Shown here: piece after piece, positions 6,863 through 59,800 of the stretch
Numbering within the stretch: the first letter of the stretch is position 1
How the letters are laid out: every line of letters begins with the position of its first letter
Origin: Gammaproteobacteria bacterium
Lineage (GTDB): Bacteria; Pseudomonadota; Gammaproteobacteria; Pseudomonadales; Azotimanducaceae
DNA length: 64,000 bases
Assembly: GCA_009846005.1 (NCBI GenBank)
Contig: VXYL01000073.1
Coordinates: 1-64,000 of the forward strand
Reading direction: 5' to 3'
Translations under genes and position numbers: made by a program
The notes under the pieces: generated by a model
What the model was told of the DNA's origin: nothing
Seen by the model: only the letters and a program-made list of their open reading frames with translations
The model's database searches: none

Positions 6863-6968
6863 CGTAGGGGCGACCCTTGCGGTCGCCCGCAAAGGGCGCG
6901 CCGTCGCCGCCGGACGTACCGGCTCCCTCGGCAACGGGACGGGACAACGCCGCCCCAGTCCCCTACGG
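6863..6968. repeat. Composite palindromic repeat, copy 3
   Basis: A second copy directly follows copy 2. It has an intact left hairpin (GGGCGACC, short loop, GGTCGCCC) and a decayed right half that still ends in CCCCTACGGG. Copies 2 and 3 fill most of the 334-bp gap between coq4 and receptor 1. Confidence 0.8.
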
Positions 6969-6969
6969 G

Positions 6970-7097
6970 TTGAACCGCCCAGGGACTAGCGCATATAGTG
7001 CTTACTACCGCAGTTTGGCAAGCACAAGCTACGGCACAAAGCGGGGGAACCCCGCACGTTGTTCCCCCGTCCCATCGCTGGATTAGAGGGGATCACT
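6970..7097 (+). promoter_or_regulatory. Promoter and leader of TonB-dependent receptor 1
   Basis: A candidate sigma70 promoter is TTGAAC (6970-6975), an 18-nt spacer and TATAGT (6994-6999). Seven bases later comes ACCGCAGTTTG (from 7007), the likely transcript start. The leader carries a perfect hairpin GCGGGG-GAA-CCCCGC at 7041-7055, then a ribosome site AGAGGGG before the ATG at 7098. The -10, the 7-nt gap, ACCGCAGTTTG, the hairpin and following bases are all repeated upstream of receptor 4 (21748-21930), which supports function. Confidence 0.6.
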
Positions 7098-9758: not shown

Positions 9759-9917
9759 GAACACGCCGCGGGTCTTCAAGATCGTGCGGGCCCGGGGCCG
9801 GCCCGCGACTGGGCACACCTGAGCTTGCCCGTCCACCAGGTCCGCTGGCAGTTGGCGATCAAACCGCAGAACGAGTACCGCGAGGTGTTGGCGACGGCAC
9901 CGGCCACCGTCACATAG
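9759..9917 (+). pseudogene. coq4 relic with internal deletion
   Basis: The 5' part, in one frame, reads NTPRVFKIVRARGRPA, matching TPRVFEIVRALGRPA of the coq4 at 6042. It joins directly, in another frame, to DWAHLSLPVHQVRWQLAIKP and NEYREVLATA, matching the C-terminal end of the same protein. About 480 bp corresponding to 6168-6650 are missing, and the join is out of frame. This short remnant is therefore a decayed second copy, lying exactly between receptor 1 and the FecI-like sigma factor. Confidence 0.8.
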
Positions 9918-14500: not shown

Positions 14501-14725
14501 AACTTCGACATCTCGACGATGCCATCATACGGACGATTCGATGTTCGCGGTACCTGGACCTCTCCAGATGAAACCATTGCCGCGACGCTGTTCGTGCAAA
14601 ACGTCTTCGATGAAATCGGTGTGATTGAGTACCTGCATCTATCCACCCACTGGACACCGAGACAAGGCACCCTGACCGATCCGCGTTTGGTAGGTCTGGA
14701 AGTTCGCTGGAGACCCAACTTGTAG
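11589..14725 (+). pseudogene. FecA-like TonB-dependent receptor 2 with STN domain, frameshifted near 13388
   Basis: The first frame (11589-13403) encodes a signal-like segment (RWVLAACALPVALFAHG), an STN signalling domain at about 70-145, then a second signal-peptide-like segment, the TonB box IEVIVVTAEK, the plug (VEVARGPQGTLHGRNS) and the first part of the barrel. The frame ends abruptly at 13401-13403. The barrel resumes in another frame from about 13388 (YQPWVNVNVDDAARAAGY) and runs to WRPNL at 14725, consistent with a single missing base. An internal ATG at 12048 has a good ribosome site and would give a product without STN. The body closely matches receptor 1. It is either inactivated or affected by a sequence error. 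Confidence 0.88.
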
Positions 14726-18685: not shown

Positions 18686-18763
18686 GGGACGGGACGAGCC
18701 CGTCCCCTACGGAATGCCCGGCACGCCGCGGAAACGTCGTAGGGGCGGGGCTTGTCCCCGCCC
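18686..18763. repeat. Palindromic repeat halves, copy 4 region
   Basis: The 276-bp gap between the oxidoreductase and receptor 3 holds repeat material and no gene. A right half (GGGACGGG-ACGAG-CCCGTCCC then CTACGG) is at 18686-18712. A variant left half (CGTAGGGGCGGGG-CTTGT-CCCCGCCC) is at 18738-18763. Fragments continue to about 18800. Both hairpins could end transcription between the two convergent genes. Confidence 0.75.
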
Positions 18764-21577: not shown

Positions 21578-21747
21578 TTCAAGCACCTCCCTCGTTTCAC
21601 GCGGACCCAATGGGCCGGTGGGCCGGGAGGGGCACTCGCGCCGAGCGCACATGTCAAGAGGGCGGTACCGCGGCATTGCGCCAGTTTCGGGTGTATCTCC
21701 CGATCCACTCAAGCCATACGCCCCTTTCCTTAGCGTGTCAAGGGGGG

Positions 21748-21930
21748 TATGGTGATTGGCACCGCAGTTTGACGTCGCCGCCTGGGAGACTCAGCTTGCG
21801 AAGGGTCGTGCATGCGTGATGCATGCGTTTTTCGTCCCCCAATCCCACCCAGCGACGCAAGCTTCGGCGTAGAGCGGGGGAACCCCGCACCTCGTTCCTC
21901 CGTCCACATCGTTGGGTAAGGGGGAACGTC
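21748..21930 (+). promoter_or_regulatory. Promoter and long leader of receptor 4
   Basis: The 353-bp divergent region (21578-21930) has no gene. On the plus strand, TATGGT (21748-21753) is followed after 7 nt by ACCGCAGTTTG (from 21761), exactly the arrangement upstream of receptor 1. The leader holds a GCATGC-GTGAT-GCATGC hairpin near 21810-21827 that receptor 1 lacks. It then has the shared hairpin GCGGGG-GAA-CCCCGC at 21874-21888 and a purine-rich ribosome site before the ATG at 21931. No convincing -35 is seen. On the minus side only GGGAGG before receptor 3 is clear. Confidence 0.55.
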
Positions 21931-24519
21931 ATGTCCATCAGACCATTTGATCGCGTTGCCGCGGCACTGACCGCAATACTCATTGCATCGCCCTGTCTTG
22001 CGGCAGACGAAGCAACCGATGAAGAAGAGCCCTTCATCGAAGAGATCATCGTCACCGCCGAAAAGCGGGAAGAGAACATCCTCGAAGTTCCCCTCACCAT
22101 GTCCGCGTTCAGCGAACAGATGATCGAGGAAACCGGCATGACCAACAACGCCGATCTCGAGCAACTGGTGCCGGGGTTGCAATTCGGCGACGACCACGGC
22201 ACCTCCATACGGGGCATCATCTCGCAACTGAGATGGGAAGGGCACACCGACCTCGCGGTCGCCGTTTACGTCAACGGTGTCTACACGGTCGACGCCTACG
22301 GGATCGCGCCCAATCTATTCGACATGGATCGGGTCGAGGTCGCCCGCGGCCCGCAGGGCACCATGAATGGGCGCAACTCCATCGCAGGTTCGATCAGCTA
22401 CTTCCACAAGAAGCCGACCGATGAATGGGATGCCGAGATTCTCACCGAATTCACCGATCAGTTCACGCAACGCTACAATGTCGCGTGGGGGGGACCCATT
22501 TCAGACAACCTCAGCTTCCGCATCAGCGGCGGCTATTTCGAGGGGGACGGCGCGCAGAAGAACCATGGGCCAGCCCGCGACTACGATGCGCCGGATCAAT
22601 ACAGCATCGCGCCGCAGCTGCGCTTGAAGACGGACCGCTTCGAGGCGAACTTGCGTTATGAACGCACCGAGGACACCGGCGCACCGAGCGTGCAGGTGTC
22701 TTTGGCGGAGCCGGACAGGACCGACCCGGACTTCGCCGAAGGCGCGTTCTACCAGTACGACAAACCGATCCGTTCGATCACGAACTGTAACGTCGCGCCC
22801 GTTGGGGCAGACCACAGGGTAACGGGCGTTGAGGCGCCCTGCGATGATCCAAAGAACGAGATCGCGACCAATCTGGACGGTCGCCTTGACAACGAAACCG
22901 ACCGATTCACACTGCGAGCCGACTTCGACCTCACCGATACGTTGACGTTGCGCTATATCTATGGCGACACGAGGACGCGTATGTTCCAGACCCGCGACTT
23001 TGATCACACCGACAGGGTGCCAAGCGCGACCGATCCATTAATCGCGGCTGACGCCCCGGTGAAGTTGTTAGACGTGGAGTTCGATTTCCCTTTTGAAAAC
23101 GACGAGACCTCTCATGAGCTGCTGCTTACTTCCAATTACGACGGTCCGTTCAACTTTGTCGCTGGCGCGTTCTCCTACGAGAACCGCACGCTCTTTGGGG
23201 TCGGCGTATATGGTGTAGGACAGCAGCCCCCGTATACCGACACCGACCCCGATGTAGCCGCCCAGGCTATAGGCTTCGAAAGTTGCGAGCAGGCGCTGGG
23301 GGTCTTTGGCCTTCCCTCAGATCCCACGGAGCGGGAGCATTTTTTCTGTCCCAGGCCAGGAATCGATCCCATTGGGAACACATTCCCCGGTTTCCACAAG
23401 TTTTTCACCTTCCTTACCGAAGCCACGCAGGACACCTTCGCGTATTTCGCCAATGCCGAGTATGAGATCAATGATCAGTGGCGCGTATCGGGGGGTCTGC
23501 GTTACACCGAAGATGAAAAGGTTCTGGGACAGAGTATCTTCGAGTTTATCCTCAGCATCGCTGGCATTCCAATTGGCATCCGGGGTCAAAACACCCCCCT
23601 CGACAAGTTTCCCTGGGATAAAACCATCGGCCACATCAGCGTCGAATATTCACCACTCGACAATGCCCTCATCTACGGGCGTATCTCCACCGGCTATCGC
23701 TCCGGCTCACTGAATACTGAGCCTGAGGTCCCCCTGTTGGCAATCATCGGAGAAGAGACGCTCGTCAATTACGAGCTCGGTGTCAAGGGCCTGTTCGCGG
23801 ATGACCGGCTGCTTCTCATGGCGGGCGTGTTCTACAACGACTACGAAGGCTACCAATTCACCGGGACCTTTGAGCCGCCACCCGGCGTGCTACCGATCAC
23901 CGCCGAGGAACCGTACGTGGGAAGCACCGCCAATATCGATGACACCCAGATCTGGGGTGCCGAAGCGGAAGCGACGTTTTTTGTCGATGACAATTGGCGC
24001 ATATCCGGGTTCTACAACTATCTCGACTCGGAAATCGGCCCATTCGGCGCGATTATCCCCGGGGACGCCCAGGGGCCAATGAGGGAATGGACCTACCAGG
24101 ACCTCAACACCCTGGAGATGGTCACCGTCACCCTCCCGGACCAGCGGGATGTTACCGGCAATCAGTTGCCGCAGCAGCCGCACCACAAGCTGTCGTTCCA
24201 GGTGTCCTACACCATGCCGCTTCCGGAAATGGGCTCGCTGCAGCTGTTAAGCATCTACAGCTATACCGGCCCGCGCTGGCCGAGTCTCGGTAACGTTCCG
24301 TCCCTGGAAATCCCCGGGTACTCGCGATGGGACCTGCGCGCCAACTGGACCTCGGATGACGAGCAATGGGCAGTCTCCGGTTTTGTGCAGAACGTGCTCG
24401 ACAAGATTGGGCTACAGGAATTCCTCCCGAGGTCGACGAACGGCAGTCAGCCGATGATGGGCCGGCTCACGGACCCACGTCAGATCGGGGTACAGATTCG
24501 CTGGCGGCCTCAGTTCTAG
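21931..24519 (+). CDS. TonB-dependent receptor 4
   Basis: This is an 862-residue outer-membrane receptor with a signal peptide (ILIASPCLAA), the TonB box IEEIIVTAEK, the plug motif TSIRGIISQL, RVEVARGPQGTMNGRNSIAG, and a barrel ending in the aromatic WRPQF. The first 50 residues and the 5' leader are strikingly like those of receptor 1, while the barrel differs, so the ligand may differ too. The start ATG at 21931 aligns with the signal peptide start of receptor 1. It is followed by two YejA-like binding proteins, suggesting that it could supply the periplasmic ligand they bind. Confidence 0.95.
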   Translation: MSIRPFDRVAAALTAILIASPCLAADEATDEEEPFIEEIIVTAEKREENILEVPLTMSAFSEQMIEETGMTNNADLEQLVPGLQFGDDHGTSIRGIISQLRWEGHTDLAVAVYVNGVYTVDAYGIAPNLFDMDRVEVARGPQGTMNGRNSIAGSISYFHKKPTDEWDAEILTEFTDQFTQRYNVAWGGPISDNLSFRISGGYFEGDGAQKNHGPARDYDAPDQYSIAPQLRLKTDRFEANLRYERTEDTGAPSVQVSLAEPDRTDPDFAEGAFYQYDKPIRSITNCNVAPVGADHRVTGVEAPCDDPKNEIATNLDGRLDNETDRFTLRADFDLTDTLTLRYIYGDTRTRMFQTRDFDHTDRVPSATDPLIAADAPVKLLDVEFDFPFENDETSHELLLTSNYDGPFNFVAGAFSYENRTLFGVGVYGVGQQPPYTDTDPDVAAQAIGFESCEQALGVFGLPSDPTEREHFFCPRPGIDPIGNTFPGFHKFFTFLTEATQDTFAYFANAEYEINDQWRVSGGLRYTEDEKVLGQSIFEFILSIAGIPIGIRGQNTPLDKFPWDKTIGHISVEYSPLDNALIYGRISTGYRSGSLNTEPEVPLLAIIGEETLVNYELGVKGLFADDRLLLMAGVFYNDYEGYQFTGTFEPPPGVLPITAEEPYVGSTANIDDTQIWGAEAEATFFVDDNWRISGFYNYLDSEIGPFGAIIPGDAQGPMREWTYQDLNTLEMVTVTLPDQRDVTGNQLPQQPHHKLSFQVSYTMPLPEMGSLQLLSIYSYTGPRWPSLGNVPSLEIPGYSRWDLRANWTSDDEQWAVSGFVQNVLDKIGLQEFLPRSTNGSQPMMGRLTDPRQIGVQIRWRPQF

Positions 24520-24548: not shown

Positions 24549-24626
24549 GCCGTAGGGGCGACCCTTGTGGTCGCCTGCGTCATACGTGGCCCGTGGGGCG
24601 GGACGGGACAAGCCCGTCCCCTACGG
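24549..24626. repeat. Composite palindromic repeat, copy 5
   Basis: A nearly canonical copy. CCGTAGGGG leads into a GGGCGACC/GGTCGCC hairpin, a variable middle, then GGGACGGG-ACAAG-CCCGTCCC and CCCCTACGG. It occupies most of the gap between receptor 4 and the next binding protein. Confidence 0.88.
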
Positions 24627-30037: not shown

Positions 30038-30119
30038 CCGTAGGGGCGACCCTTGTGGTCGCCCGTGGCGAAGGTTCGGTTGCCTAAGCACCGGGACGGG
30101 ACAAGCCCGTCCCCTACGG
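30038..30119. repeat. Composite palindromic repeat, copy 6
   Basis: A textbook full copy. CCGTAGGGG begins the left hairpin GGGCGACC-CTTGT-GGTCGCCC, followed by a variable core of about 35 bp and GGGACGGG-ACAAG-CCCGTCCC ending in CCCCTACGG. It lies between the divergent aminotransferase and protease genes. Confidence 0.9.
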
Positions 30120-47312: not shown

Positions 47313-49214
47313 ATGCCGGGAAGAAGGGGATATCGCGACGCGGGTCGCCGAGTTTCGCCGAACCGGGTGATCGAACGCCGCCCCCCGGGGCTCGCGCGCT
47401 TGCTGCTCGGCGAGGAGAAGTTCCTCACCGAGCGCGATTGGACGGCCATCAAGATGATGGCGCCGTTCTTCCTCGAGTTCAGGGGCCGGCTCGCCCTCGC
47501 CTTCGGCTGCCTCGCGGCGATCCAGGCGACCCAGTTCACCGTGCCGTGGCTTCTAAAGCTCATCGTCGACAGCCTGGACTCCACACAGGCGCAGATCGTG
47601 GCGTTGCCGGTGGGCTTGCTGATTGTGTACGTGCTCGTGCGTTTCGGCTCAACCGCGCTGCGCGAGCTTCGCGAGGCCGTGTTCGGCACGGTAACCGTCC
47701 GTGCCATGCGGCGTCTGTCGCTGACGCTGCTCGACCACCTGCTCGGCCTCGACCTCGAATACCACGTCGCGCGCCGCACCGGTGCCGTGAGCCGGGACAT
47801 GGACCGCGGCGTCATGGCCATCACCTCGCTAATGCGCATTCTCACCTTCCAACTGCTGGCCATGTTCATCGGCGTGTTCGGCGTCGCCGGGATCATGGTG
47901 GTCTTCTTCGACTGGAGCTACGCGGCCATCATTCTCGCCGCGGCGGTGTTCTACGCCGTCTACACGGTCAAGGTGACGGCCTGGCGCACGCCCTTCATCC
48001 GCGAATCCAACGAGGCGAACTCACGTGCCAACACCCGCGCCATCGACAGCCTGATCAACTACGAGACCGTCAAGACCTTCGGCAACGAGGGCATGGAAAC
48101 CACCTTCTACGACGAGGATCTCGCGATCTGGGAGAAAGCCCGGGCCAGAAACCGCTATTCGCTGGCGGCGCTCAACGTCGGCCAGTCGTTCATCGTTCAC
48201 ATCGGTCTGCTCGGCATGATGATCATCGCCGCCATGGCCGTCGTCGACGGCTCCATCAGCATCGGCAGCCTGGTCGCCATCAACGGCTATGCCGTTCAGG
48301 TCTTCGTCCCGTTGAACGCCCTCGGGTCCATCTATCGGCAGTTGAAGAACGCCTTCACCGACGTCGAGCTCATGTTCGACATCCTGGAGACATCGCCCAA
48401 GATCGTGACACCCCGGTCGCCTGCGGCAATGCCGCCCGGCGACGGTCCCATCGTGTTCCGGGACGTAGCCTTCGCCTACCAGCCCGAACGAGAGATCCTC
48501 ACGGGCATCGACTTCTGCATCGAGCCGCACCAGACCCTCGCCCTAGTCGGGCCGAGTGGCAGCGGCAAGTCGACCATCGCCCGGCTGCTGTTCCGGTTCT
48601 ACGACCCTAACCGGGGGGCCGTCCTCGTCAACGGCAGGGACATTCGCATGATCGACGTCGCGAGCCTCCGAGGCGCGTTCGGCGTGGTCCCGCAGGACGT
48701 CACGCTGTTCAACGACACGCTCTACCACAACATCGCCTACGGCCGGCTGGACGCCACCGAGGCCGATGTCCAGGAGGCAGCCATTCTCGCCCGTCTCGAC
48801 GAACTCATCGACCGCCTGCCGAACGGATTCGACACCGTGGTGGGCGAGCGTGGGCTCAAGCTCTCCGGTGGCGAGAAGCAGCGCGTCGCCATCGCCCGGG
48901 CGATCCTCAAGGATCCCACGTTCCTGATCTTCGACGAGGCCACGTCGTCCCTCGACACGGTCACGGAACGCGCCATCATGCACGCCATCAACGAGGTCTC
49001 CGCCCGCCATACGACGCTCCTCATCTCGCACCGGTTGAGCACCGTGGTGGACGCCGATCAAATCGTATTGCTCGAGGACGGCGCAGTCCTCGAGACCGGA
49101 AACCACGCCCAGTTGCTGGCCCAGCAGGGCAAGTACGCCGAGATGTGGACCGTGCAGCGCAAGGAGCGAGCGGCCACGGAGACGTTGGACAGCTTGGATA
49201 CAACAATCGCGTAG
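47313..49214 (+). CDS. Atm1/HMT1-type ABC exporter (fused membrane and ATPase domains)
   Basis: This is a 633-residue half-transporter. The membrane domain, about 55-340, has six helices with the Atm1-typical NYETVKTFGNEGMETTFYDE loop. The ATPase domain, about 365-610, has Walker A GPSGSGKST near 412, signature LSGGEKQRV near 516, Walker B FLIFDEATSSLD near 537 and the switch histidine in LLISHRLSTV. Atm1-like exporters move glutathione-sulfur or metal-thiol compounds. It starts on the base after the E2 stop, so it belongs to the same transcript. It converges on a 2Fe-2S ferredoxin. Its TAG stop is in a CGTAGGGGACGG repeat-like end. Confidence 0.93.
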   Translation: MPGRRGYRDAGRRVSPNRVIERRPPGLARLLLGEEKFLTERDWTAIKMMAPFFLEFRGRLALAFGCLAAIQATQFTVPWLLKLIVDSLDSTQAQIVALPVGLLIVYVLVRFGSTALRELREAVFGTVTVRAMRRLSLTLLDHLLGLDLEYHVARRTGAVSRDMDRGVMAITSLMRILTFQLLAMFIGVFGVAGIMVVFFDWSYAAIILAAAVFYAVYTVKVTAWRTPFIRESNEANSRANTRAIDSLINYETVKTFGNEGMETTFYDEDLAIWEKARARNRYSLAALNVGQSFIVHIGLLGMMIIAAMAVVDGSISIGSLVAINGYAVQVFVPLNALGSIYRQLKNAFTDVELMFDILETSPKIVTPRSPAAMPPGDGPIVFRDVAFAYQPEREILTGIDFCIEPHQTLALVGPSGSGKSTIARLLFRFYDPNRGAVLVNGRDIRMIDVASLRGAFGVVPQDVTLFNDTLYHNIAYGRLDATEADVQEAAILARLDELIDRLPNGFDTVVGERGLKLSGGEKQRVAIARAILKDPTFLIFDEATSSLDTVTERAIMHAINEVSARHTTLLISHRLSTVVDADQIVLLEDGAVLETGNHAQLLAQQGKYAEMWTVQRKERAATETLDSLDTTIA

Positions 49215-49230
49215 GGGACGGATCCTACCG
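49210..49230. repeat. Minimal repeat-end palindrome shared by two convergent stop codons
   Basis: CGTAGGGGACGG followed by ATCCTACCG forms a degenerate short version of the composite repeat ends. Its left TAG is the stop of the Atm1-like gene, and its right CTA is the TAG stop of the ferredoxin gene on the other strand. Confidence 0.55.
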
Positions 49231-49539
49231 ACCGACGACTTTCACCCGCAGGCCGTCCAGTTCATCGGTTAGTTCGATCTGGCACGACAGTCGACTGGTC
49301 GGGGCGACTTCACCGTCGAACTCCAGCATGTCCCGTTCGATCTCGCTCGGCGGCCCGACAATCGGCATCCAGTCGGAATCGACATGCACGTGGCACGTCG
49401 CGCAGGCGCAGCCGCCGCCGCATTCGGCGTCGATGCCTTCGATGCCCTCGGCACGGGCCAATTCCATCACGATGTCGCCGACGTCGCCCTGGACGGCCAC
49501 GACGTCGTTGTCGAGTGTCTCAAAGTAGACGGTTGCCAT
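49225..49539 (-). CDS. 2Fe-2S ferredoxin (adrenodoxin-like)
   Basis: This is a 104-residue ferredoxin. Cluster ligands are C40, C46 and C49 in the pattern C-x5-C-x2-C (ECGGGCACATCHV), with the fourth ligand C86 in SRLSCQIEL. The ATG at 49539 gives MATVYFETLDND, the usual ferredoxin start. It carries electrons for a P450, oxygenase or iron-sulfur assembly. No partner reductase is adjacent; the facing gene is the Atm1-like exporter. Its stop falls in a short repeat-like palindrome. Confidence 0.95.
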   Translation of the reverse strand: MATVYFETLDNDVVAVQGDVGDIVMELARAEGIEGIDAECGGGCACATCHVHVDSDWMPIVGPPSEIERDMLEFDGEVAPTSRLSCQIELTDELDGLRVKVVGR

Positions 49540-49653
49540 CGCGTCTATCGTAGACTCGCAGGGCAAGAACAGAAAGCATGGCAGGCGTCGCCCCTTGATT
49601 AGGGACGCCGACCGCGCTCGTTGTCATACTTCCAAGACGGGAAAGCGCTCGCA

Positions 49654-52600
49654 ATGGTGCGTAGATTTGCCGCCGGGTGTTTCGCCGCTGCTGGCGTGGG
49701 CTTAGCAGCGCAGGCGCAACCGATCGACAGCTTGTTCCGGGATGTCGACGGCCCGGCACCGGACATCGCGGCCTCCCAAGCGACCGAACTGCGTGGCCTG
49801 ACTGCGCGGGCGATTCGAACCCGTATCGTACGAGTCGACCTTGAAACGCTAGCCGCGATGCGTCGCGCGCTCCTGTTGCCGGGCCGCGACCCCGGAACGT
49901 TGAGCCTCTTCGACGACACCGAGTTCGAAGTCATCTTCGAAAAATCGGTACCCGCGGTATCGGGATACGCGCTGCAGGGTCGTCTGCTCGGCATCGAATC
50001 CGGCATCGTCACGTTCGTCGTGCGCGGGCAAACGGTCACGGGAACCGTCACCACATCGAATGGGCGCTACACGATCACACCCGGTGCGGACGGCACGCAC
50101 GTCATCACAGAAGTCGATTGGACCCTGGCCCCGGAGGGCGAACCGGTCCCGCCTGAGGATTCCCCGGAGTACGTGTTCGACCAGGCGGAAACGATGCCGA
50201 CCCGACGTAGGCGAGCGGAGACCGTTGTGCCGCCGACCGCCCGGTCGGATCCGCCGCCGATGTCCGCGACACGCCGGCTTCCCACGGTCAACTCGAACGC
50301 CTGGCTGCCCCAGGGTCCGGGCGCGACGGGCCGGAACGGCGGCCTATTGGACGGGCAGGTCGAAAACGTCGAGCCGAACAATGCGGTGATCGGCGCCATT
50401 CACACCGTGCTCGCGCATCCGACCGACGCCGACATCCTCTACATCGGTGCCGTCAACGGCGGCGTATGGAAGACAACCAACGCGACGGCAACCGACCCGG
50501 ACTGGACACCCCTGATTGACGATATGGGCGCGATGTCGATCGGCGCCATGGCCTTCGACCGCACCGACCCGGAAACCGTCCTCGTCGGTTTCGGCCGTTA
50601 CAGCAGCTTTTTTCGAAGTGGCGGCGACCGCAATGGCCTGCTCCTGACGAAGGATGGGGGGGCCACCTGGACGAAGCTCGACGACCCGCTGCTGATCGAC
50701 ATGAACGTGTCGGGCTTGTCGATCGACGGCGACCGCCTTGTCGTCGCCGGGAGCCGGTACACCGTCCGAGAGGGCCACCGGGGCGTGGTGCGCAGCGCGG
50801 ACGGCGGCGTGACCTGGAGAGCCGTTGCCGAGTCCGACGGGCTACCCGAGAGCAGTAGTGTCCTTGACATGGTGGACGATCCGTCGAACGCGGATCGCTT
50901 CTATGCGTCCGTCCAGTACACCGGGATTTTCCGCAGCGACGATGGTGGCGCCACTTGGTCGCATGCCTCCGCAAACGACGCGGCGATCCAGGCCGTGATG
51001 ACCCACTGGTACAACAACAATGCCGAGATGGCCGTCGCCCACGACGGCCGACTCTACCTGGCGGCGATGATCGGCGGCCAAGCGCAATACATCGGCTACA
51101 CAGACGACCAGGGGGCAACATGGACGGAGATGGACCTGCCTCAGACACCCGAGTCCGATGGCGACATCGAAGGCTTGAACCCCCGTTTCAAGGCCGGCGC
51201 CCAAGGCTACATACACTTCTCGATCCGGGTCGACCCCCTGGATGCCGACGTCGTGTACGTCGGCGGCGACCGCCAGGACGCACCTTTCCCGAACTACATC
51301 GGCGCCCGGGACTACACGGGGCGGCTGTTCCGCGGCAACGCCTCCGTTGAAGCCACAGGCGAGGTGCCTTCGCCGCAGTGGAAGCACTTGACCCACAGCT
51401 CGTTCATCGCCGGGATCCCGGGGGGCGGCACGGCGAGCAACAGCGCCCCCCATGCCGACTCCCGGGAAATGGTCTTCGATGCCGACGGAGATCTCATCCA
51501 GGTCGACGACGGTGGCATCTACCGGCGCACGTCTCCCGGCAGCTATACCGGGGATTGGTTCTCCTTGAACGGCAATCTCCAGGTCACCGAGATGCACGAC
51601 GTTGCCTACGACACGCTGGCGAACGTAGTCGTCAGCGGCAACCAGGACGTGGGCAATTCGCACCAGACCACGGGCGGGAGCCTCTACTGGGACTCCCTGA
51701 CTCACGCCGACGGCGGCGATGTCGTGATCGATGTCAGGGAGGCGGAGGGCCGGTCGATACGCTACCTCAGCCTCCAGTACCTGCGCCGATTCAACGGCCA
51801 CATCTATGACGCCAACAACGAGCGAATCGGTTTCCTGGCGCCCGCCATGCTGGTGAACGGATCGATCCGCCTGTCCGAGTGGGAACCCAACCTGCGGTTC
51901 GTGCAGCGGTTCGAGTTAAATGCGGTCAATCCGAACCGCGTGGTGCTCGGTGCCTCCGCCCTCTACGAGAGCTACGACCAGTTCGAGACGTTCGAGGAAT
52001 CGTTCGTTCTGGATTTCGACCTCGACCCCTTCGACTTCGTCCGAGCCACCGCCTACGGGTGCGCCGGCGATCCCGATTTGCTCTACGTCGCCCACGGCGT
52101 CCAGCAGGGCCCGCGAATCGACGTCAGAGCTCGCCGGCTTGCCGCACCCGACTTCGTGCAAACCGGCTACCCCGGCGGCAGCCCCAGGGACATCCTCATC
52201 AACCGGGATACCTGCGAAACCGTCTACGTCATCGACGCCGAAAACGTGTGGTCCTCCACCGATACCGGTGAGACCTGGCAGGACATTACCGGCAACCTCC
52301 TCGACGATCCGGTCAGGTACCCGGACCGTCAGAAGCTGGAGTTCATCCCCGCCGGCGAGATCTTCGCCCAAGCCGCCATCGCCGTCGCCGGCCGGGGCGG
52401 CGTCCACGTGATGGAGGTAACCGCGCCGGGCGAGTGGTACGACCTTGGGGCCAGTCTACCGGACGCCCCGGTTTTCGATCTCGACTACGATCCAGATGAC
52501 CGGCTGCTCGTCGCGGGAACACTGGGCCGCGGCGCCTGGCTCATCCTGTCCGCCGCCCCCGTGGTCCAGATCGGCATCCTGGACCAGGACATGGAAGTCG

Positions 52601-54696
52601 ACGATGAATCGACGTTGGACATCTCGAACCTCTTCTACAGCACCGACGAGACATTGGCGTACACCGTGTCGTCCAGCGACGCGTCGGTCGTTGCGGCGTC
52701 GTTGACCGGGACCGGGTTGGTTCTGCGTGCCAACCGGGCCGGCGCTGTCACCATCACCGTGGTGGCCACGGACGACGACGGGCTGACGGGCGCCCATACG
52801 TTCACCGTGACCGTCGGAACCGTGGTGTCGTTCGCCGCCGCAGCCGAGGCGGTTGCAGAAGGCGCCAGAGCCTCGTTCACGATCGAGTTGAACCGCTCTT
52901 CAACGACCGCGATCAATGTCGACTATTCGATCGTGCCCGGCGACGGTGCAGGTACCGCTCCCGCCGACGCGGACGACCATACCGGCACCGACGGCACATT
53001 GTCTTTCGCCGCCGGCGAGACCAGCCAGAGACTCGACATCCGCATCAGCGACGACGACGCCATCGAACCGGTGCGCGAGGCGTTCACGATCCGCCTCGAG
53101 CCACCCACGGAAGACGACGCCTGGGGTCTTGGCATAGCACCGGCAGCAACGGTACAAATCAAGGAAGGCGTGTGCGATCGAACACCCGCCGTGCGCGATG
53201 CATTGAGCCCCCGGGTCGACTGCAGCGAGGTCTCCGAGTTGGACATCGCATCCATCCGCCGCCTCAAGCTCGAGAAGATCGACTCGTTCAAGCCCCGGGA
53301 CCTCCTCGGACTCGCCGGACTGTCGCGTCTCGAGATCGTGGACGGCTCGTTCACGTCGTTGCCGGAGGCGCTTTTCGGCGGGCTAGCCAGCCTGGTGACC
53401 ATGGAGATGACGGGCAACGACCTGGAGATGCTTCCCGGGAGGATCTTCGACGGCCTGTCGCGCCTCAAGACCCTCCGACTCGCCAGCAACCAGCTAACGG
53501 ATATGCCTGAAGCCGTGTTCGAGGGCGTACCCGCGTTGGAGCGCCTTGAGGTCACGGGCAACGCGTTGACCGAGTTGCCCGGGCGCGTATTCGGTGGCTT
53601 ACACGCCCTGAAGGTTCTACGCCTCGACAATAACCAACTCCTCGAGTTGCCGGAGGGGATATTCGATTCGTTGACCGCCCTCGCCTCCCTCGACGTCGCC
53701 GAGAACCAATTGACCGCGTTGCCGAGCGACGTATTCGACAACCTCACGGAACTCGGCGCCCTGGGCCTCGACCGCAACCAATTGGCCCGATTGCCGGACG
53801 GCGTCTTCGACGGACCCCGCAAACTCGGCCTGCTCACGCTCAACGACAATCATCTGGCGGAGTTGCCGGCGGGCGGGTTCAGCGGCCTAGGGTCGCTGTC
53901 CCGCCTCTACGTCAACGACAACCAGTTGACCGCCCTCCCGGCGGGCGTGTTCGAAGGCACCGAATCCCTGACCCTGGTCCATCTCCAGGACAACCCGGGC
54001 GCGCCATTCCCGCTGACGGTACGCCCCGTACGTACGGACTCCGCCGCTCTGACGGACCCGGGGCCGGCCACCCTTGAGGCGAGCGTGGCCGAAGGCGCGC
54101 CGTTCCCCATGTCGGCGGATCTCGCGGTCGCCAATGGAACGCTTTCGGAGGACAAGATACGCCTCGCCCCCGGACAGACAGCAAGCGAGTCGTTCACCGT
54201 GACGGAAGAGAATGGCAAGGCCATCGTGGAAGTCGTCGAGGTAACCCGCGTCCCACCCACCCACTGCGGGATCAGCGGCGCGTGTTTTCAAGGCATCGAG
54301 ACCTTCGCCGGGGACGCCGTCGTGTTGTTCGAAGGACCGGGGGTCGTGAATGCGATCATCGATCAGAGCATCGACTCCATCGGCGACAGTCTGGTCTTCG
54401 AATTGAGCGACCTGTTCTCGGCGGAGCCTGGCACGACCCTCACGTTCTCGGTCGTCACGAGCGATGCCGCGCTCGTGACGGCGTCGCTGGACGGTAGCGT
54501 GTTGACGATCGCCGCGGCCGGCGAAGGCGACGCGACCGTGGCCGTCACCGCCACCGACGACCTCGGCCGCATCGCGACCTTCGAGTTCGACGTGACAGTC
54601 GGATTGCCCCTCGGCAGCCTTCGGGGTTGGCGACTCGGCGTGCTGGCCAAGGAGGCCAACGCAGCCGAGGAAGACGACGAGGCAGCGGCTCCGTAG
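49654..54696 (+). CDS. Giant secreted BNR-propeller / Calx-beta / leucine-rich repeat protein
   Basis: This is a 1680-residue exported protein. A signal peptide (residues 1-22, FAAGCFAAAGVGLAAQAQ) is followed by an N-terminal region to about 200. A sortilin/BNR-type beta-propeller spans about 210-970, with Asp-box motifs TKDGGATW, SADGGVTW, SDDGGATW, TDDQGATW and STDTGETW. An Ig/cadherin-like domain is at about 970-1055 and a Calx-beta domain at about 1056-1165. Nine 24-residue leucine-rich repeats occupy about 1220-1435 (pattern LxxLxxLxLxxNxLxxLPxxVFxG). A second Ig-like domain is at about 1565-1655 before an acidic tail. The LRR type resembles those of many eukaryote-facing marine bacteria. 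It probably acts outside the cell in adhesion or recognition. The TAG stop lies in a palindromic repeat. Confidence 0.9.
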   Translation: MVRRFAAGCFAAAGVGLAAQAQPIDSLFRDVDGPAPDIAASQATELRGLTARAIRTRIVRVDLETLAAMRRALLLPGRDPGTLSLFDDTEFEVIFEKSVPAVSGYALQGRLLGIESGIVTFVVRGQTVTGTVTTSNGRYTITPGADGTHVITEVDWTLAPEGEPVPPEDSPEYVFDQAETMPTRRRRAETVVPPTARSDPPPMSATRRLPTVNSNAWLPQGPGATGRNGGLLDGQVENVEPNNAVIGAIHTVLAHPTDADILYIGAVNGGVWKTTNATATDPDWTPLIDDMGAMSIGAMAFDRTDPETVLVGFGRYSSFFRSGGDRNGLLLTKDGGATWTKLDDPLLIDMNVSGLSIDGDRLVVAGSRYTVREGHRGVVRSADGGVTWRAVAESDGLPESSSVLDMVDDPSNADRFYASVQYTGIFRSDDGGATWSHASANDAAIQAVMTHWYNNNAEMAVAHDGRLYLAAMIGGQAQYIGYTDDQGATWTEMDLPQTPESDGDIEGLNPRFKAGAQGYIHFSIRVDPLDADVVYVGGDRQDAPFPNYIGARDYTGRLFRGNASVEATGEVPSPQWKHLTHSSFIAGIPGGGTASNSAPHADSREMVFDADGDLIQVDDGGIYRRTSPGSYTGDWFSLNGNLQVTEMHDVAYDTLANVVVSGNQDVGNSHQTTGGSLYWDSLTHADGGDVVIDVREAEGRSIRYLSLQYLRRFNGHIYDANNERIGFLAPAMLVNGSIRLSEWEPNLRFVQRFELNAVNPNRVVLGASALYESYDQFETFEESFVLDFDLDPFDFVRATAYGCAGDPDLLYVAHGVQQGPRIDVRARRLAAPDFVQTGYPGGSPRDILINRDTCETVYVIDAENVWSSTDTGETWQDITGNLLDDPVRYPDRQKLEFIPAGEIFAQAAIAVAGRGGVHVMEVTAPGEWYDLGASLPDAPVFDLDYDPDDRLLVAGTLGRGAWLILSAAPVVQIGILDQDMEVDDESTLDISNLFYSTDETLAYTVSSSDASVVAASLTGTGLVLRANRAGAVTITVVATDDDGLTGAHTFTVTVGTVVSFAAAAEAVAEGARASFTIELNRSSTTAINVDYSIVPGDGAGTAPADADDHTGTDGTLSFAAGETSQRLDIRISDDDAIEPVREAFTIRLEPPTEDDAWGLGIAPAATVQIKEGVCDRTPAVRDALSPRVDCSEVSELDIASIRRLKLEKIDSFKPRDLLGLAGLSRLEIVDGSFTSLPEALFGGLASLVTMEMTGNDLEMLPGRIFDGLSRLKTLRLASNQLTDMPEAVFEGVPALERLEVTGNALTELPGRVFGGLHALKVLRLDNNQLLELPEGIFDSLTALASLDVAENQLTALPSDVFDNLTELGALGLDRNQLARLPDGVFDGPRKLGLLTLNDNHLAELPAGGFSGLGSLSRLYVNDNQLTALPAGVFEGTESLTLVHLQDNPGAPFPLTVRPVRTDSAALTDPGPATLEASVAEGAPFPMSADLAVANGTLSEDKIRLAPGQTASESFTVTEENGKAIVEVVEVTRVPPTHCGISGACFQGIETFAGDAVVLFEGPGVVNAIIDQSIDSIGDSLVFELSDLFSAEPGTTLTFSVVTSDAALVTASLDGSVLTIAAAGEGDATVAVTATDDLGRIATFEFDVTVGLPLGSLRGWRLGVLAKEANAAEEDDEAAAP
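53311..53958 (+). repeat. Nine 72-bp leucine-rich repeat units
   Basis: Nine consecutive 24-codon units encode the LRR region, each ending in LP-xx-(V/I/L/G)F-x-(G/S/N). A tenth partial unit follows to about 54020. The unit length is constant, so copy changes would keep the reading frame. Confidence 0.85.
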
Positions 54697-54786
54697 GGGC
54701 GACCCTATCGCGCCCGTCAGGGCGCGCCGCCCGTGCCGAACATCCGATTGCCACGGAAACGGGACGGGAAAACGCCGCTGCTAGGT
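54691..54786. repeat. Composite palindromic repeat, copy 7 (decayed right half)
   Basis: CCGTAGGGGCGACC at the left contains the TAG stop of the LRR protein. The right half GGGACGGGAAAACGCCGCTGC is degenerate but aligns with the standard right half, so its CTA (54781-54783) corresponds to the CCCCTACGG end and is the aldolase stop codon on the minus strand. It fills the whole gap between the two convergent genes. Confidence 0.7.
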
Positions 54787-55665
54787 CGCGGAGGCGGCAG
54801 CGATCGAAGCGATGGCACCGTCTAGCATCGCCGTGAAGGCCGCATCGTCCAAGTCGACGCGGAGACCTTCGGTCAACGCCCGGGAAAAACTCGCGATAAC
54901 GCCGGTGTTGGCAGCGAGTTTTTCGTTCGAGACTTGGCGCGAGTAGCCGCCCGACAGCGCAACCACGCGCAACACCTTGGGATGGCCGCACAACTCCCGG
55001 TAGTGGTTCGCCTCATCGGGCAAGGTCAGCTTGAACACGACGGGCGCATCGCCCTTGAGGTCGTCGAGCCCCTTGTGCAGGTGGTCCCGCAGGATGTCCT
55101 CGCACGCCGGCTTGTCCTCGGCATGGATGTCCACCTCCGGTTCGATGATCGGCACTAGGCCGTGGTCGCGGACTTCATCGGCGAAGGCGAACTGCTGCTC
55201 GACTACCCGGGCGATACCGGCTTCGTTCGGCGCCTTGATAGCCGAGCGCATCTTGGTGCCGAACACGCATTTCGCGCGTGCCGCTGGCAACCGTTCCGCG
55301 AGGTCCGGTATCGGTTTCATCACCTGAACGCCGTCGGCTTCGTCTGCCATGCCGTAGTCGATCTTGAGGAACGGCAGGATGCGCTTCCTTCGCCAAAGGT
55401 ACTCGCTGGTGGGCATGCCGGCCACGTCGCGGTCCAAGGTGTTCTGGAACAGGATCGCGCCCAAGATTCGACTCCCATCGAACCTCGGATTGGTCATGAT
55501 CCGACTCCGCATGGCGTGCACCGCGTCGAACATCTCGTCGTCGTTCGAGTACGCCGACTCGTCGACGCCGTAGAGCGAGAGCGCCTTGGGCGTGCTGCCG
55601 CCGCTTTGGTCCAGCGCCGCGATGAACCCGGCATCCGATCCCATGCGTTGAATTTGCTCCGACAT
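54781..55665 (-). CDS. Class I fructose-bisphosphate aldolase
   Basis: This is a 294-residue class I aldolase. It has ALDQSGGSTPKALSLYG at the start, GAILFQNTLDRDV, FLKIDYGMADEADGVQVMKPI with the substrate-contacting lysine, IIEPEVDI, the Schiff-base lysine in PVVFKLTLP, and RVVALSGGYSR for phosphate binding. It cleaves fructose 1,6-bisphosphate in glycolysis or makes it in gluconeogenesis. The length fits the short bacterial class I type. It is monocistronic, divergent from the sulfatase, and its stop lies in the right end of a palindromic repeat. Confidence 0.95.
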   Translation of the reverse strand: MSEQIQRMGSDAGFIAALDQSGGSTPKALSLYGVDESAYSNDDEMFDAVHAMRSRIMTNPRFDGSRILGAILFQNTLDRDVAGMPTSEYLWRRKRILPFLKIDYGMADEADGVQVMKPIPDLAERLPAARAKCVFGTKMRSAIKAPNEAGIARVVEQQFAFADEVRDHGLVPIIEPEVDIHAEDKPACEDILRDHLHKGLDDLKGDAPVVFKLTLPDEANHYRELCGHPKVLRVVALSGGYSRQVSNEKLAANTGVIASFSRALTEGLRVDLDDAAFTAMLDGAIASIAAASAT

Positions 55666-55712
55666 CGCGCCACCCTAGATGCTGTCTTTCCTGCCTAGCG
55701 TACCGTAGCGAT

Positions 55713-57089
55713 ATGACCAATCCCAACATACTGTTCCTGATGACCGACCAGCAGCGCTGGGACGCGATGAGTTGCGCCGGCGACTGGGTCGAGACGCCGG
55801 CCCTCGACCGGATCGCCGCCGAAGGCGTGCGCTTCACCCAGTGCGTCACCACCACGCCCATCTGCATCCCGGCACGGGTGACTCTCGCCACGGGGCGCTA
55901 TCCGCACAACAACGCGGTCTGGAACAACCTGCAATACACCATGCCGCCCGATGCCCCGACCTGGATGCGCGCGATCCGCGACCTCGGCTACCGCACTAGC
56001 CTGTTCGGCAAGACCCACCTGCACCCGCACCAAGGCGACCTGCGCGAACGCGAGCATCTCCTGAACGCCTATGGTTTGGATGACATCGACGAGATCGGCG
56101 GTCCCCGGGCCAGTGCCCAGGTGATGAGCCATATGACGGCGGGCTGGGAAGCCAAAGGACTGCTCGAAGCATACCGCGAGGACTACGCGGAACGGTTCGC
56201 CAACAAGCCCCATGTGGTTCGCCCGTCGGTGCTGCCGCTCGAGGACTACATCGACGTCTACGTCGGCCAGCAGGCGAAGCGCTATCTCGAGAACTACAAC
56301 CGGGACGAGCCGTGGTGCTGCTGGGTCAGCTTCGGCGGCCCGCACGAGCCCTGGGACGCCCCGGAGCCCTTCGCCAGCATGTACGACCCGGAGGCGATGC
56401 CCGCGCCCGTGGCCCGCCCCGTCGACGACCGCCCCCGGCCGCGCGGCTGGCTAGATGATCGAATCGAACATGGCAGTCCCACGTTCGAGCCCGGCGACGA
56501 GGCCGCCATGCGCGCCAACTACGCCGGCAACGTTACCCTGATCGACGATCAGATCGGCCAGATCCTCGCCGTCATCGAGGAACGGGGCGAACTCGACAAC
56601 ACCGTCATCGGTTTCACGTCGGACCACGGCGAACTGAACGGCGACTGGGGCCTCATCTACAAGATGGTCTTCCTCGACGGTTCAGTGCGCGTGCCGATGC
56701 TCGTTCGCACCCCCGAGACCGCGAAGAACGGCGGCGTGGTCAGCGATGTGCTGGTCGAGAACTGCGATTTAGGCCCAACACTCACCGAACTTGCCGGCGG
56801 CGAGCTGACGCACCGGCAGTTCGCCCGTTCGCTATGTCCAGCGCTCGGCGGCAACGGCGAGCACCGGGACACCGTCACCTCCGAGATCCGCGGCGAGTTC
56901 ATGTTGATGACCCGGGACTGGAAGATGGCGCTGAACGACGACGGCCAGTGCTACCTTCTCTTCGACCGCAACGACGATCCCCAAGAGACGCGCAATCTGG
57001 CCGGGCTATCCGAGTCCAAGCCGGTCGAGGACGAACTTCGGTTGATGGCGCTGGAACGGCTCGCCCAGACCCAGCTCAAGGAACCGTAG
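55713..57089 (+). CDS. Type I sulfatase
   Basis: This is a 458-residue sulfatase. The formylglycine signature C51-I-P-A-R is in TTTPICIPARVTLATGRYP; metal-binding residues are in NILFLMTDQQR (D12) and FTSDHGELNGDWG. KTHLHPHQ and FGGPHEPWDAPEPF are typical of the family. No signal peptide is seen, so it may act in the cytoplasm or be exported another way. It hydrolyses a sulfate ester, perhaps from a marine polysaccharide or sulfolipid. The required maturase is not in the window. The last codon CCG and the TAG stop come from the left end of a palindromic repeat. Confidence 0.95.
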   Translation: MTNPNILFLMTDQQRWDAMSCAGDWVETPALDRIAAEGVRFTQCVTTTPICIPARVTLATGRYPHNNAVWNNLQYTMPPDAPTWMRAIRDLGYRTSLFGKTHLHPHQGDLREREHLLNAYGLDDIDEIGGPRASAQVMSHMTAGWEAKGLLEAYREDYAERFANKPHVVRPSVLPLEDYIDVYVGQQAKRYLENYNRDEPWCCWVSFGGPHEPWDAPEPFASMYDPEAMPAPVARPVDDRPRPRGWLDDRIEHGSPTFEPGDEAAMRANYAGNVTLIDDQIGQILAVIEERGELDNTVIGFTSDHGELNGDWGLIYKMVFLDGSVRVPMLVRTPETAKNGGVVSDVLVENCDLGPTLTELAGGELTHRQFARSLCPALGGNGEHRDTVTSEIRGEFMLMTRDWKMALNDDGQCYLLFDRNDDPQETRNLAGLSESKPVEDELRLMALERLAQTQLKEP

Positions 57090-57163
57090 GGGACGGGCTT
57101 GTCCCGTCCCGCCAGCCCACGAGGCGCACAAGACGCGGGCGACCACAAGGGTCGCCCCTACGG
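57084..57163. repeat. Composite palindromic repeat, copy 8 (inverted orientation)
   Basis: The order is reversed relative to other copies. CCGTAGGGGACGGG-CTTGT-CCCGTCCC comes first, and GGGCGACC-ACAAG-GGTCGCCCC-TACGG comes last. The left end provides the sulfatase stop. The Uma2 gene on the other strand ends 47 bp further on. Confidence 0.88.
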
Positions 57164-57209
57164 ACCTTCATCAATAGATTCAAGGGATTATGGATTTGTT
57201 CCATGCGAG

Positions 57210-58265
57210 TCATCCGCGAACGAGGTCCTCGAAGTCGGCGTCGTCCCGGCAAGCCATGCTCGCCGACACGATGTCCGCCGTCGATGCCTCGGCAAGCGCC
57301 GCGAGACTGGATTCGCAAGGGAACCCGGGCGACATGGCCACGCGACGTTCCCGCAAGGTCGCGAGCACCATTTCGACGCGTTCGCGCAACCGGCCTTCCC
57401 CGATGCCTTCCGTTCGCCCCTCGGTCCTTCCTTCAACCCTTCCTTCGGCCCTTCCTGCCGCCCGGCATTCCTGACGATGCGCGCGCAGCAGCGGATCGTC
57501 CTCGGGCCCGGTGCCGTCCCGCTTGCCCAATGCCGCGCCCACCCGCCGCAGGATCGCGCCGGCGCCCTCCGTGATCACCAGCTCGTTCATGGCGGCGTGA
57601 ATCTCGTCGGCTTGCCAGCCCGGAAACGCACGGCTCGCCAGCGCTGGCTCGTACTCGCCATCGGCATTCAGCAGATAAATGGCCAACCCGGACAGGCGGC
57701 GCCGGCGACGCGTCGGCGGCTCGGCGGCGGGCACCTCCACCCACAACTCCGGAAACCCCCACGACTGGTAGACCCTGAGCTTGCCGCGACGCACATCCGT
57801 GGTGTGGTCGATCTCCACGACGACATCGGGTGGATCGCTCTCGCCAACGATCAGGGAACCGCCTGCGGGGAGGTTCGCCCGATCCGGATAAAGGTATAGG
57901 CACTCGTCAGGTTCCATCGCGCGACGAAGCCCCCGGGTGTCGTACCGGAGCAGCGACACGGCGCAGAAACGCCCGATGCGTGCGCCCCGTTCCTGGGCGA
58001 TCCGTTCCACGACGCCGGCCAGCAGCCCGCGCGGTTCCTCGTGGCCCAGGCCGGGCGAGTCGGCGATCATGGCGACTCCGGCGGCTTCGTCCCAGAACTC
58101 GACGTGCTGCTCGGACGCCTCGTACTGGACGCTCGACATGGGCACCTGCTCGCAGCCGGGAAACTCCAGCCCGTCGAGCACCGGAACACCTCCGGCGTCG
58201 CCACGACCTTCGTCCCTCGGGTTTCCGGGACGATTTTCTACAGGTCTGGACCTCACCTGACGCAT
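57210..58265 (-). CDS. Uma2 family (PD-(D/E)XK-like, DUF820) protein, copy 1
   Basis: This is a 351-residue protein. The nuclease-like core is PPDVVVEIDHTTDVRRGKLRVYQSWGFPELWVEV, with the acidic residues and lysine expected of Uma2 proteins. A charged C-terminal segment contains tandem xEGR units (AEGRVEGRTEGRTEGIGEGR) and ends in LAEASTADIVSASMACRDDADFEDLVRG. The ATG at 58265 has GAGGTG upstream. Uma2 proteins are often multi-copy and their function is poorly known; nuclease activity is assumed from the fold. The gene is in tandem with copy 2, with about 325 bp of the centre identical at the DNA level. Confidence 0.85.
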   Translation of the reverse strand: MRQVRSRPVENRPGNPRDEGRGDAGGVPVLDGLEFPGCEQVPMSSVQYEASEQHVEFWDEAAGVAMIADSPGLGHEEPRGLLAGVVERIAQERGARIGRFCAVSLLRYDTRGLRRAMEPDECLYLYPDRANLPAGGSLIVGESDPPDVVVEIDHTTDVRRGKLRVYQSWGFPELWVEVPAAEPPTRRRRRLSGLAIYLLNADGEYEPALASRAFPGWQADEIHAAMNELVITEGAGAILRRVGAALGKRDGTGPEDDPLLRAHRQECRAAGRAEGRVEGRTEGRTEGIGEGRLRERVEMVLATLRERRVAMSPGFPCESSLAALAEASTADIVSASMACRDDADFEDLVRG

Positions 58266-59330
58266 TCGTACACCTCTGTTCGTTCTCAATGACCCGTACC
58301 GGAATCCGGACGGCAGCACCTCGGATCACCCAAACATAGCACCGTCCGATCCCGATCGGACAAGGCCCCGGGGAACGTCGGATCGGACTCCAAATCAGCT
58401 CGAGGACACCTGTAAGGCGTTGATTTACAGACAAACCGTTGCCGGCGGAGGCGCGCCAAAATCAGCCGCGAACGAGATTCTCGAAGTCGGCAGCGTCCCG
58501 GCAAGCCATGCTCGCCGACACGATGTCCGCCGTCGATGCCTCGGCAAGCGCCGCGCGACAGGATTCGGAAGGAAACGCGGGTGACATGGCCACACGACGT
58601 GCCCGCAAGGTCTCGCGCACCATTTCGACGCGTTCGCCCAGCCGGCCGTCTCGACGATGCGCGCGCAGCAGCGGATCGTCGTCGGGCCCCGTGCCGTCAC
58701 GCTTGCCCAATGCCGCGCCCACCCGCCGGAGGATCGCGTTGGCACCATCCGTGATCACCGGCTCGTTCACGACGGCGTGAATCTCGTCTGCCCGCCAACC
58801 CGGAAACGCACGGCTCGCCGACGCCACCTCGTATTCGCCATCGGCATTCAGCAGATAGATCGTCAACCCGGACAGGCGGCGCCGGCGACGCGTCGGCGGC
58901 TCGGCGTCGGGCACCTCCACCCACAACTCCGGAAACCCCCACGACTGGTAGACCCTGAGCTTGCCGCGACGCACATCCGTGGTGTGGTCGATCTCCACGA
59001 CGACATCGGGTGGATCGCTCTCGCCAACGATCAGGGAACCGCCTGCGGGGAGGTTCGCCCGATCCGGATAAAGGTATAGGCACTCGTCAGGTTCCATCGC
59101 GCGACGAAGCCCCCGGGTGTCGTACCGGAGCAGCGACACGGCGCAGAAACGCCCGATGCGTGCGCCCCGTTCCTGGGCGATCCGTTCCACGACGCCGGCC
59201 AGCAGCCCGCGCGGTTCCTCGTGGCCCAGGCCGGACGAGTCGGCGATCATGGCGACCCCGGCGGCCTCGTCCCAGAACTCGACGTGCTGCTCGGACGCCT
59301 CGTACTGGCCGCTCGACATGGGCACCTGCT
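57728..59330. repeat. Tandem duplication containing a long identical segment
   Basis: The segment 57728-58053 recurs at 58908-59233, offset 1180 bp, with no difference that I could find. Flanking gene parts and the upstream regions (58266-58390 and 59443-59570) are similar but diverged. This points to recent duplication or gene conversion of the two Uma2-type genes. Confidence 0.85.
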
Positions 59331-59442
59331 CGCAGCCGGGAAACTCCAACCCGTCGAACACCGGGACACCGCCCTTGCCGCGACCATCGTGCCTCGGGTT
59401 TCCGGGACGAACACCTACAGGTCTGGACCTCACCTGACGCAT
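58462..59442 (-). CDS. Uma2 family (PD-(D/E)XK-like, DUF820) protein, copy 2
   Basis: This is a 326-residue paralogue of copy 1, with an identical central core (from YQSWGFPELWVEV back through the conserved N-terminal half). It lacks the xEGR repeat segment; RRDGRLGERVEMV replaces the longer charged stretch of copy 1, which accounts for most of the length difference. The N-terminus MRQVRSRPV is the same as in copy 1, supporting the start at 59442. It is probably not essential; duplicates of this family accumulate in many environmental genomes. Confidence 0.85.
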   Translation of the reverse strand: MRQVRSRPVGVRPGNPRHDGRGKGGVPVFDGLEFPGCEQVPMSSGQYEASEQHVEFWDEAAGVAMIADSSGLGHEEPRGLLAGVVERIAQERGARIGRFCAVSLLRYDTRGLRRAMEPDECLYLYPDRANLPAGGSLIVGESDPPDVVVEIDHTTDVRRGKLRVYQSWGFPELWVEVPDAEPPTRRRRRLSGLTIYLLNADGEYEVASASRAFPGWRADEIHAVVNEPVITDGANAILRRVGAALGKRDGTGPDDDPLLRAHRRDGRLGERVEMVRETLRARRVAMSPAFPSESCRAALAEASTADIVSASMACRDAADFENLVRG

Positions 59443-59461
59443 TCGTACACCTCTGTTCGTC

Positions 59462-59800
59462 TCAACAAACCGGCCCCGGAATCGGAGCGGCAACGCCGTA
59501 GATCACCCAAACATAGCACCATCCGATCCCGGGCGAACAAGGTACGCAAGAAAGGTCGGATCGACTCGGCGTTTCGTTCGAATGCCTCGCAAGGCCTTGA
59601 TTCGGCGGTTCTTCGAGAACGCGCCCGACGTGCACGGCGCTGAACGGTGGCACGCGGGTGACGCCGCTAAGCCCGAAGGAGTAGCGTAGATCGTAGTGGT
59701 CCTTGACGTGGAACCATCCGGGCGAGGTTTCATCGTTGCGAACGTGGAAGGACAGATGAAACCGGGGCGTGCCGTCGCGTGCGTCTTCCCACCTCGACAT
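59462..59800 (-). CDS. Doubtful hypothetical protein or gene remnant
   Basis: The 487-bp gap between the second Uma2-type gene and the peptidase holds one doubtful open frame of 112 codons. Its first about 60 codons have high third-position GC and plausible sequence (PRFHLSFHVRNDETSPGWFHVKDHYDLRYSFGLSGVTRVPPF). The C-terminus runs into the duplicated upstream region of the Uma2-type gene and is not convincing. No family was recognised and no ribosome site is clear. It may be a fragment of a lost gene. Nothing else was seen in this gap. Confidence 0.25.
   Translation of the reverse strand: MSRWEDARDGTPRFHLSFHVRNDETSPGWFHVKDHYDLRYSFGLSGVTRVPPFSAVHVGRVLEEPPNQGLARHSNETPSRSDLSCVPCSPGIGWCYVWVIYGVAAPIPGPVC

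Follow-up and report, generated by a model that had tools for sequence, protein, structure and literature searches.

GTAG-tagged REP elements at TAG stop codons of a gammaproteobacterial genome: probable insertion behind existing stops as one main route

The DNA analysed here (in the following, the window) comprises 64,000 nucleotides (nt) of contig VXYL01000073.1 from a gammaproteobacterial genome of the Azotimanducaceae (assembly GCA_009846005.1), in which short repeats overlap the TAG stop codons of several genes. Judged from their sequence, these repeats are GTAG-tagged repetitive extragenic palindromic (REP) elements and their inverted doublets (REPINs). Insertion behind an already existing TAG was probably one main route to this overlap, with further stops captured later and with the elements moved by a transposase of the REP-associated tyrosine transposase (RAYT) type. 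A preliminary description of the window had suggested that the element inserts at, or replaces, stop codons; insertion is supported for 9 of 19 testable genes, and replacement is likely for some of the other 10.

Repeats were collected from an own sample of 864 kb, consisting of the window and 40 further, non-randomly chosen stretches of the genome. The unit is composed of GTAG and an 8-bp stem around CTTGT, most commonly GGGACGGG-CTTGT-CCCGTCCC or GGGCGACC-CTTGT-GGTCGCCC; it is frequently arranged in inverted pairs and also occurs singly. With a strict test (GTAGGG plus an 8-nt arm, at most one mismatch) 152 REP ends carrying the tetranucleotide directly 5′ of the palindrome were detected, 142 of them outside called coding sequence. 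Inverted doublets numbered 44, including 19 of 70-79 bp, and by eye both arms change together in the stem variants. The pattern CGTAGGGGNNGG had 400 matches in the genome vs 29 for the reversed pattern, more than 100 per genome counting as high copy number. In the window itself (G+C content 63%) CCGTAGGGG with up to one mismatch occurred 33 times against 18.3 expected, a number reached by 1 of 100 shuffles. Three REPINs (C5:222434-222545, C5:351270-351399 and C40:218010-218134) carry a piece of one hairpin in 3-4 tandem copies, which look as if copied by slippage.

Gene calling with a hexamer model on the 864 kb yielded 708 genes, ending in TGA (381), TAG (264) or TAA (63). The TAG of a strict REP end was a called stop in 37 of 152 cases. 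If the ends were instead distributed at random over these intergenic segments, 0.78 overlaps were expected, and none of 20,000 simulations gave more than 8. No other offset between REP and stop within 60 nt was occupied by more than 3 ends. Of the GTAG sites, 37 of 130 at stops, 105 of 533 elsewhere between genes and 10 of 4562 within called coding sequence carried a REP. In view of the first two shares no strong special affinity for stops is needed. As the intergenic count includes outer ends carried by the elements themselves, stops are probably favoured more than these shares show. Convergent orientation with the next gene was found for 26 of the 37 REP-stop genes vs 190 of 668 others (no next gene was available for 3 genes located at sequence ends).

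The order in which stop and repeat arose was assessed with 1.2 Mb of sequence from ten congeners (seven close and three more distant, 1043 called genes), which provided 656 orthologue pairs, pairs with less than 65% identity or 70% coverage being dropped. Ends were regarded as the same if the unaligned tails were equal and not longer than 6 residues. A strict REP at the stop of our genome and none in the relative was present in 71 pairs (20 own genes). From these, 11 pairs were excluded in which something REP-like, often a mutated REP and once ATAG with an intact hairpin, followed the stop of the relative, so that 60 pairs for 19 genes remained. The Atm1-like exporter gene of the window and C41a gene 83 are outside this set due to the missing second arm of their repeats. 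The set is stricter and larger than an earlier one (GTAG followed by GGG, no hairpin test), which it supersedes.

For 9 of the 19 genes at least one repeat-free orthologue stops at the same codon, and for each of the nine this codon is TAG in at least one orthologue. Before the exclusion of the 11 pairs the count had been 12 of 20, and the odds given to insertion behind a stop were therefore lowered. Counted by pair, 35 of 60 had the same end, with TAG in 26 (GTAG in 17), TAA in 9 and TGA in none. Control pairs, in which the own gene ends in TAG with nothing REP-like on either side, shared the end in 134 of 183 cases (TAG 88, TAA 14, TGA 32). The deficit of TGA amounts to 0/35 vs 32/134 by pair (Fisher p 4e-4, the pairs not being independent) and to 0/9 vs 19/55 by gene (p 0.048). 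If both partners had a REP-stop, 8 of 11 pairs showed the same end. In a one-flank test of stop REPs, 87 comparisons without GTAGGG in the relative gave GTAG in 34, other TAG in 16, TAA in 14, TGA in none and other sequence in 23. Provided that the tested genes are representative, the same-end share alone would account for about 17 of the 37 stops, which is roughly 20-fold the number expected by chance.

Two loci provided exact empty sites (marked ^), the first of them at the following pair of window features:

55713-57089, plus strand: sulfatase gene (PF00884, E 3e-45), its stop TAG at 57087-57089 being the left TAG of the REPIN
57086-57161, plus strand: intact REPIN, composed of GTAG with GGGACGGG-CTTGT-CCCGTCCC, a spacer and an inverted GGGCGACC-type REP ending in CTAC

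The sulfatase gene of congener G003 ends in GAACCGTAG^TCA, i.e. CCGTAG^TCA, and directly abuts the convergent TCA stop, while in our genome the REPIN and about 45 nt separate CCGTAG from that stop. At C5 gene 172, G003 reads CCGTAG^CGGTCA, and our genome has CCGTAG, a 25-nt single REP and CGGTCA. Among 80 loci, 26 sulfatase relatives were read, mainly matches reaching the last residue and seven of them from the congener genomes used; 20 of the 26 share the terminal residue, with CCGTAG in eight cases, one of which has an intact REP behind the stop. CCG TAG is found at this residue in repeat-free relatives. The closest named records for the sulfatase are those of metagenome-assembled Gammaproteobacteria/Pseudomonadales. 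At the stops of the sulfatase gene and of C41a gene 81, our genome and G010 carry different REP stem types, and therefore repeated arrival or turnover is suggested. A two-flank search for empty sites of all REPINs was successful for 11 of them, with 18 matches in total, but few matches were clean, since intergenic DNA diverges fast.

In the half of the genes with unchanged ends, the element would have entered directly behind (G)TAG, moved by the RAYT. Elements of the IS608 type insert behind a short fixed sequence. By analogy with the guide sequences through which elements of the IS200/IS605 insertion sequence family pick their sites, the GTAG of the REP would perhaps pair with CTAC of the other strand. 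GTAG and CTAC are perfectly complementary, and the available text of PMC8266576 regards GTAG as the guide, with cleavage at C|T; taken together, this would fit a target C|TAC on the non-coding strand. Selection would remove insertions at coding GTAG, leaving those at TAG stops and at intergenic GTAG. The phase would be fixed because TAG stops are among the few GTAG sites at which an inserted element spares the protein. In the half with shifted ends, an outer, element-borne GTAG or the decay of the old stop would turn the TAG of the repeat into the stop. REPs at neighbouring stops could recombine, so that a single REPIN fills a convergent gap; in G010 the gap between C41a genes 80 and 81 holds a REP at one stop and a REPIN at the other, a possible intermediate for the single REPIN that fills this gap in our genome. 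The more specific proposal that the GTAG of REPs is target-derived at one end, that pairing of this guide with CTAC lets the RAYT insert REPs and REPINs behind GTAG, and that TAG stops are safe harbours is offered tentatively, as a little less likely than its opposite. At C5 genes 182/183 the REPINs of our genome, G010 and G002 have a constant right REP, and the arms of the left REP differ together between the genomes, which suggests gene conversion or a hairpin-templated switch from one REP type to another. In the orthologue of C5 gene 181 on G010_C13, an intact REP hairpin lies directly behind ATAG, the TAG of which is still the stop.

Several observations weigh against insertion behind existing stops. 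Orthologues with the same end were lacking for 10 of 19 REP-stop genes vs 7 of 62 controls ending in TAG (p 4e-4 in Fisher's test); ends have thus changed more often in REP-stop genes, some of whose stops were probably supplied or captured by the repeat. In one of the ten, C5 gene 181, the difference is no more than a tail of one residue: the end GACGAGTAG is common to G011, G008 and our genome, the latter with one more residue upstream. Where the relative alone had a REP-stop, the ends differed in all 5 pairs. In C41a gene 90, the TGA kept in G003 and G011 is, by eye, lost and about 6 extra codons lead to the REP TAG, and C5 gene 183 has 3-4 residues fewer than its orthologues. The orthologues of the exporter end in GCG TGA in G010, G002, G011 and G001, in TGA in G005 and in GCG TAG with GGG behind it in G003 and G008, with REP-like DNA behind in our genome and G003; from these sequences it looks like TGA became TAG plus a REP fragment. 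At about five non-stop REP ends that could be aligned to a REP-less relative, GTAG was present in none, which confines the target claim to stops for now, though these five or so may be the element's own outer ends; several further ends, resembling coding GTAGGGC matches in relatives, were omitted by eye. Finally, the Y1 transposase family PF01797 had no match in two congeners that do have REPs, G005 with 162 matches of the pattern and G011 with 58.

Shifted ends of this kind would be expected if a REP brought its GTAG along and landed at random near gene ends, its TAG becoming the stop in one of three frames. Such a route would explain why genes without a same-end orthologue are far above the controls, as well as the longer C41a gene 90, the shorter C5 gene 183 and the exporter's change from TGA to TAG, and the available text of Di Nocera 2013 (PMC3733652) is worded in this sense. 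Random landing does not predict exact empty sites, nor that for 9 of 19 genes a REP-free orthologue stops at the same codon with TAG and in no case with TGA; it is rather unlikely to have been the main route. By the refuting condition set in the preliminary description, its statement that the repeat provides the stop is not supported for these nine genes; it is likely to be correct for some of the other ten.

It is still less probable that selection sets the position, i.e. that REPs are retained behind stops for a role as bidirectional terminators, stabilisers of mRNA or modulators of translation. The convergent arrangement of 26 of the 37 REP-stop genes would suit this explanation, and E. coli REPs at most 15 nt from a stop are reported, in the part of PMC12306157 available, to stall ribosomes. 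A function of this kind predicts neither the exact overlap of GTAG and TAG without a peak at other short offsets nor different stem types at the same stop in different species. A terminator scan of positions 49000-57400 returned 2 sites, neither of them at a repeat, and by eye the hairpins have no T run, so that the combined stop and bidirectional terminator considered in the preliminary description found no support. Compositional chance, for which only the frequency of TAG as a stop (264 of 708) speaks, has practically no probability and is already refuted by the 37 overlaps and the simulations given above.

REPs and REPINs are presumably moved by the RAYT-type Y1 transposase whose gene was recognised by sequence in this genome. 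PF01797 had a single match in the whole genome (37.8 bits, cut-off 23), the translation contains the HUH-type motif HVH within MPNHVHG, and the NCBIfam model REP_Tyr_transpos (NF047646) scored 78.5 bits (cut-off 80) with E 4e-22. A search of PDB sequences with this protein gave no match. The gene is flanked by REPs with a REPIN array upstream, and its own end, CCG TAG GGGCAACC, is a REP. The array (L031:2047-2342, contig C12) comprises about four near-identical REPINs and a gap of 10 N; the stop of the neighbouring gene of 1047 amino acids is likewise the TAG of a REP. Across the genus, 6 to 400 pattern matches per genome were counted, and REP abundance loosely tracks PF01797 matches; G006 and G007 have weak PF01797 matches and few REP pattern matches.

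In the window, the preliminary description had listed six repeat-borne TAG stops, four of which stand, i.e. that of the sulfatase gene and those of the following features:

6443-6763, plus strand: open reading frame (ORF) without Pfam match, its stop being the so-called coq4 stop
6760-6836, plus strand: REPIN with decayed left and intact right REP; TAG 6761-6763 ends ORF 6443-6763
47313-49214, plus strand: Atm1-like exporter gene, ended by TAG 49212-49214 at a REP fragment
49211-49221, plus strand: REP fragment GTAGGGGACGG, 11 nt, without second arm
49621-54696, plus strand: leucine-rich repeat (LRR) gene, ended by TAG 54694-54696 at a decayed REP
54693-54733, plus strand: decayed long-loop REP, right border set by eye

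As described, all four stops read (C/G)CG TAG GGG in identical phase; only the sulfatase end (57086) passes the strict test. The two remaining stops lack the GTAGGGG of a repeat end: CGG TAG GATCC is found at the stop of the ferredoxin gene (minus strand, 49227-49225) and ACC TAG CAG at that of the aldolase gene (54783-54781). Consequently, in none of the convergent pairs of the window do both stops lie in a repeat end; four pairs with both stops in REP ends were found elsewhere in the own sample. A TAG stop is indeed located at 6761-6763, but the name coq4 is doubtful for it because the Coq4 domain lies in ORF 6042-6539, in a different frame. The two frames within 6042-6763 may represent a broken gene, a frameshift, an assembly error or two genes. 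Positions 9817-9917 resemble the coq4-like C-terminus, with TAG 9915-9917 at the matching position and no repeat behind it.

Further repeats of the window were:

2963-3028, plus strand: REPIN, neither end a called stop
6864-6966, plus strand: REPIN, neither end a called stop
18686-18710, minus strand: single REP with GTAG at its right end
18739-18763, plus strand: single REP with GTAG at 18739, tail-to-tail with the preceding REP
24552-24624, plus strand: REPIN, 32 nt past the stop of ORF 21823-24519
30040-30117, plus strand: REPIN between divergent called genes

The LRR gene, about 5 kb in length, encodes LRR, sortilin/BNR and Calx-beta domains and is located between the ferredoxin and aldolase genes; no orthologue was found at this place in G010, G011 and G001, where the flanking genes are adjacent. 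Four similar long genes (7059-9719, 11589-14725, 18917-21712 and 21823-24519), which make up the repeat families D1-D2 and inverted repeats of the window, look like genes of TonB-dependent receptors; the second is split into the overlapping frames 11589-13403 and 13364-14725. On the minus strand, 57210-58319 and 58462-59493 are tandem paralogous ORFs, the DNA of which is 82-90% identical over long stretches.

That GTAG REP ends form TAG stops has been in print since 2013 (Di Nocera 2013, PMC3733652, as far as its available text goes). The literature searched contained no printed REP target and no empty-site evidence that the stop precedes the repeat; an earlier statement elsewhere is possible. 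As a caution, a stop codon within a repeat need not originate from the repeat. If the target reading is true, GTAG REPs and TAG stops are linked in bacteria through the chemistry of transposition and not through function, and such stops would be accounted for without invoking a function. With about 400 half-copies in this genome, 15 congeners and orthologous empty sites, a read-out of REP arrival sites is available.

The elements share GTAG with a short palindrome, inverted pairs, high copy number, a position mostly behind genes and complementary stem changes with known GTAG REPs and REPINs, as depicted in the available parts of PMC3733652, Nunvar 2010 (PMC2817692) and Bertels and Rainey 2011 (PMC3116915). 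They differ in their stem and loop (GGGACGGG or GGGCGACC around CTTGT) and in their occurrence in an uncultured gammaproteobacterial genus, and in that orthologues indicate TAG before the repeat in about half of the tested genes. The candidate transposase resembles RAYT/TnpA-REP, as far as it is described in the sections available of PMC2817692 and PMC8266576, in being a Y1/HUH gene with a single match, cognate REP flanks and a REP at its own stop; it stays slightly below the NCBIfam cut-off. The IS200/IS605 elements, with IS608 as the example, serve as a working analogy only: according to the available text, their site is chosen by a guide beside the hairpin (PMC8266576), and larger target duplications are lacking (PMC2817692). 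Unlike in these elements, there is no evidence of a mobile autonomous copy here, and the target would be GTAG/CTAC.

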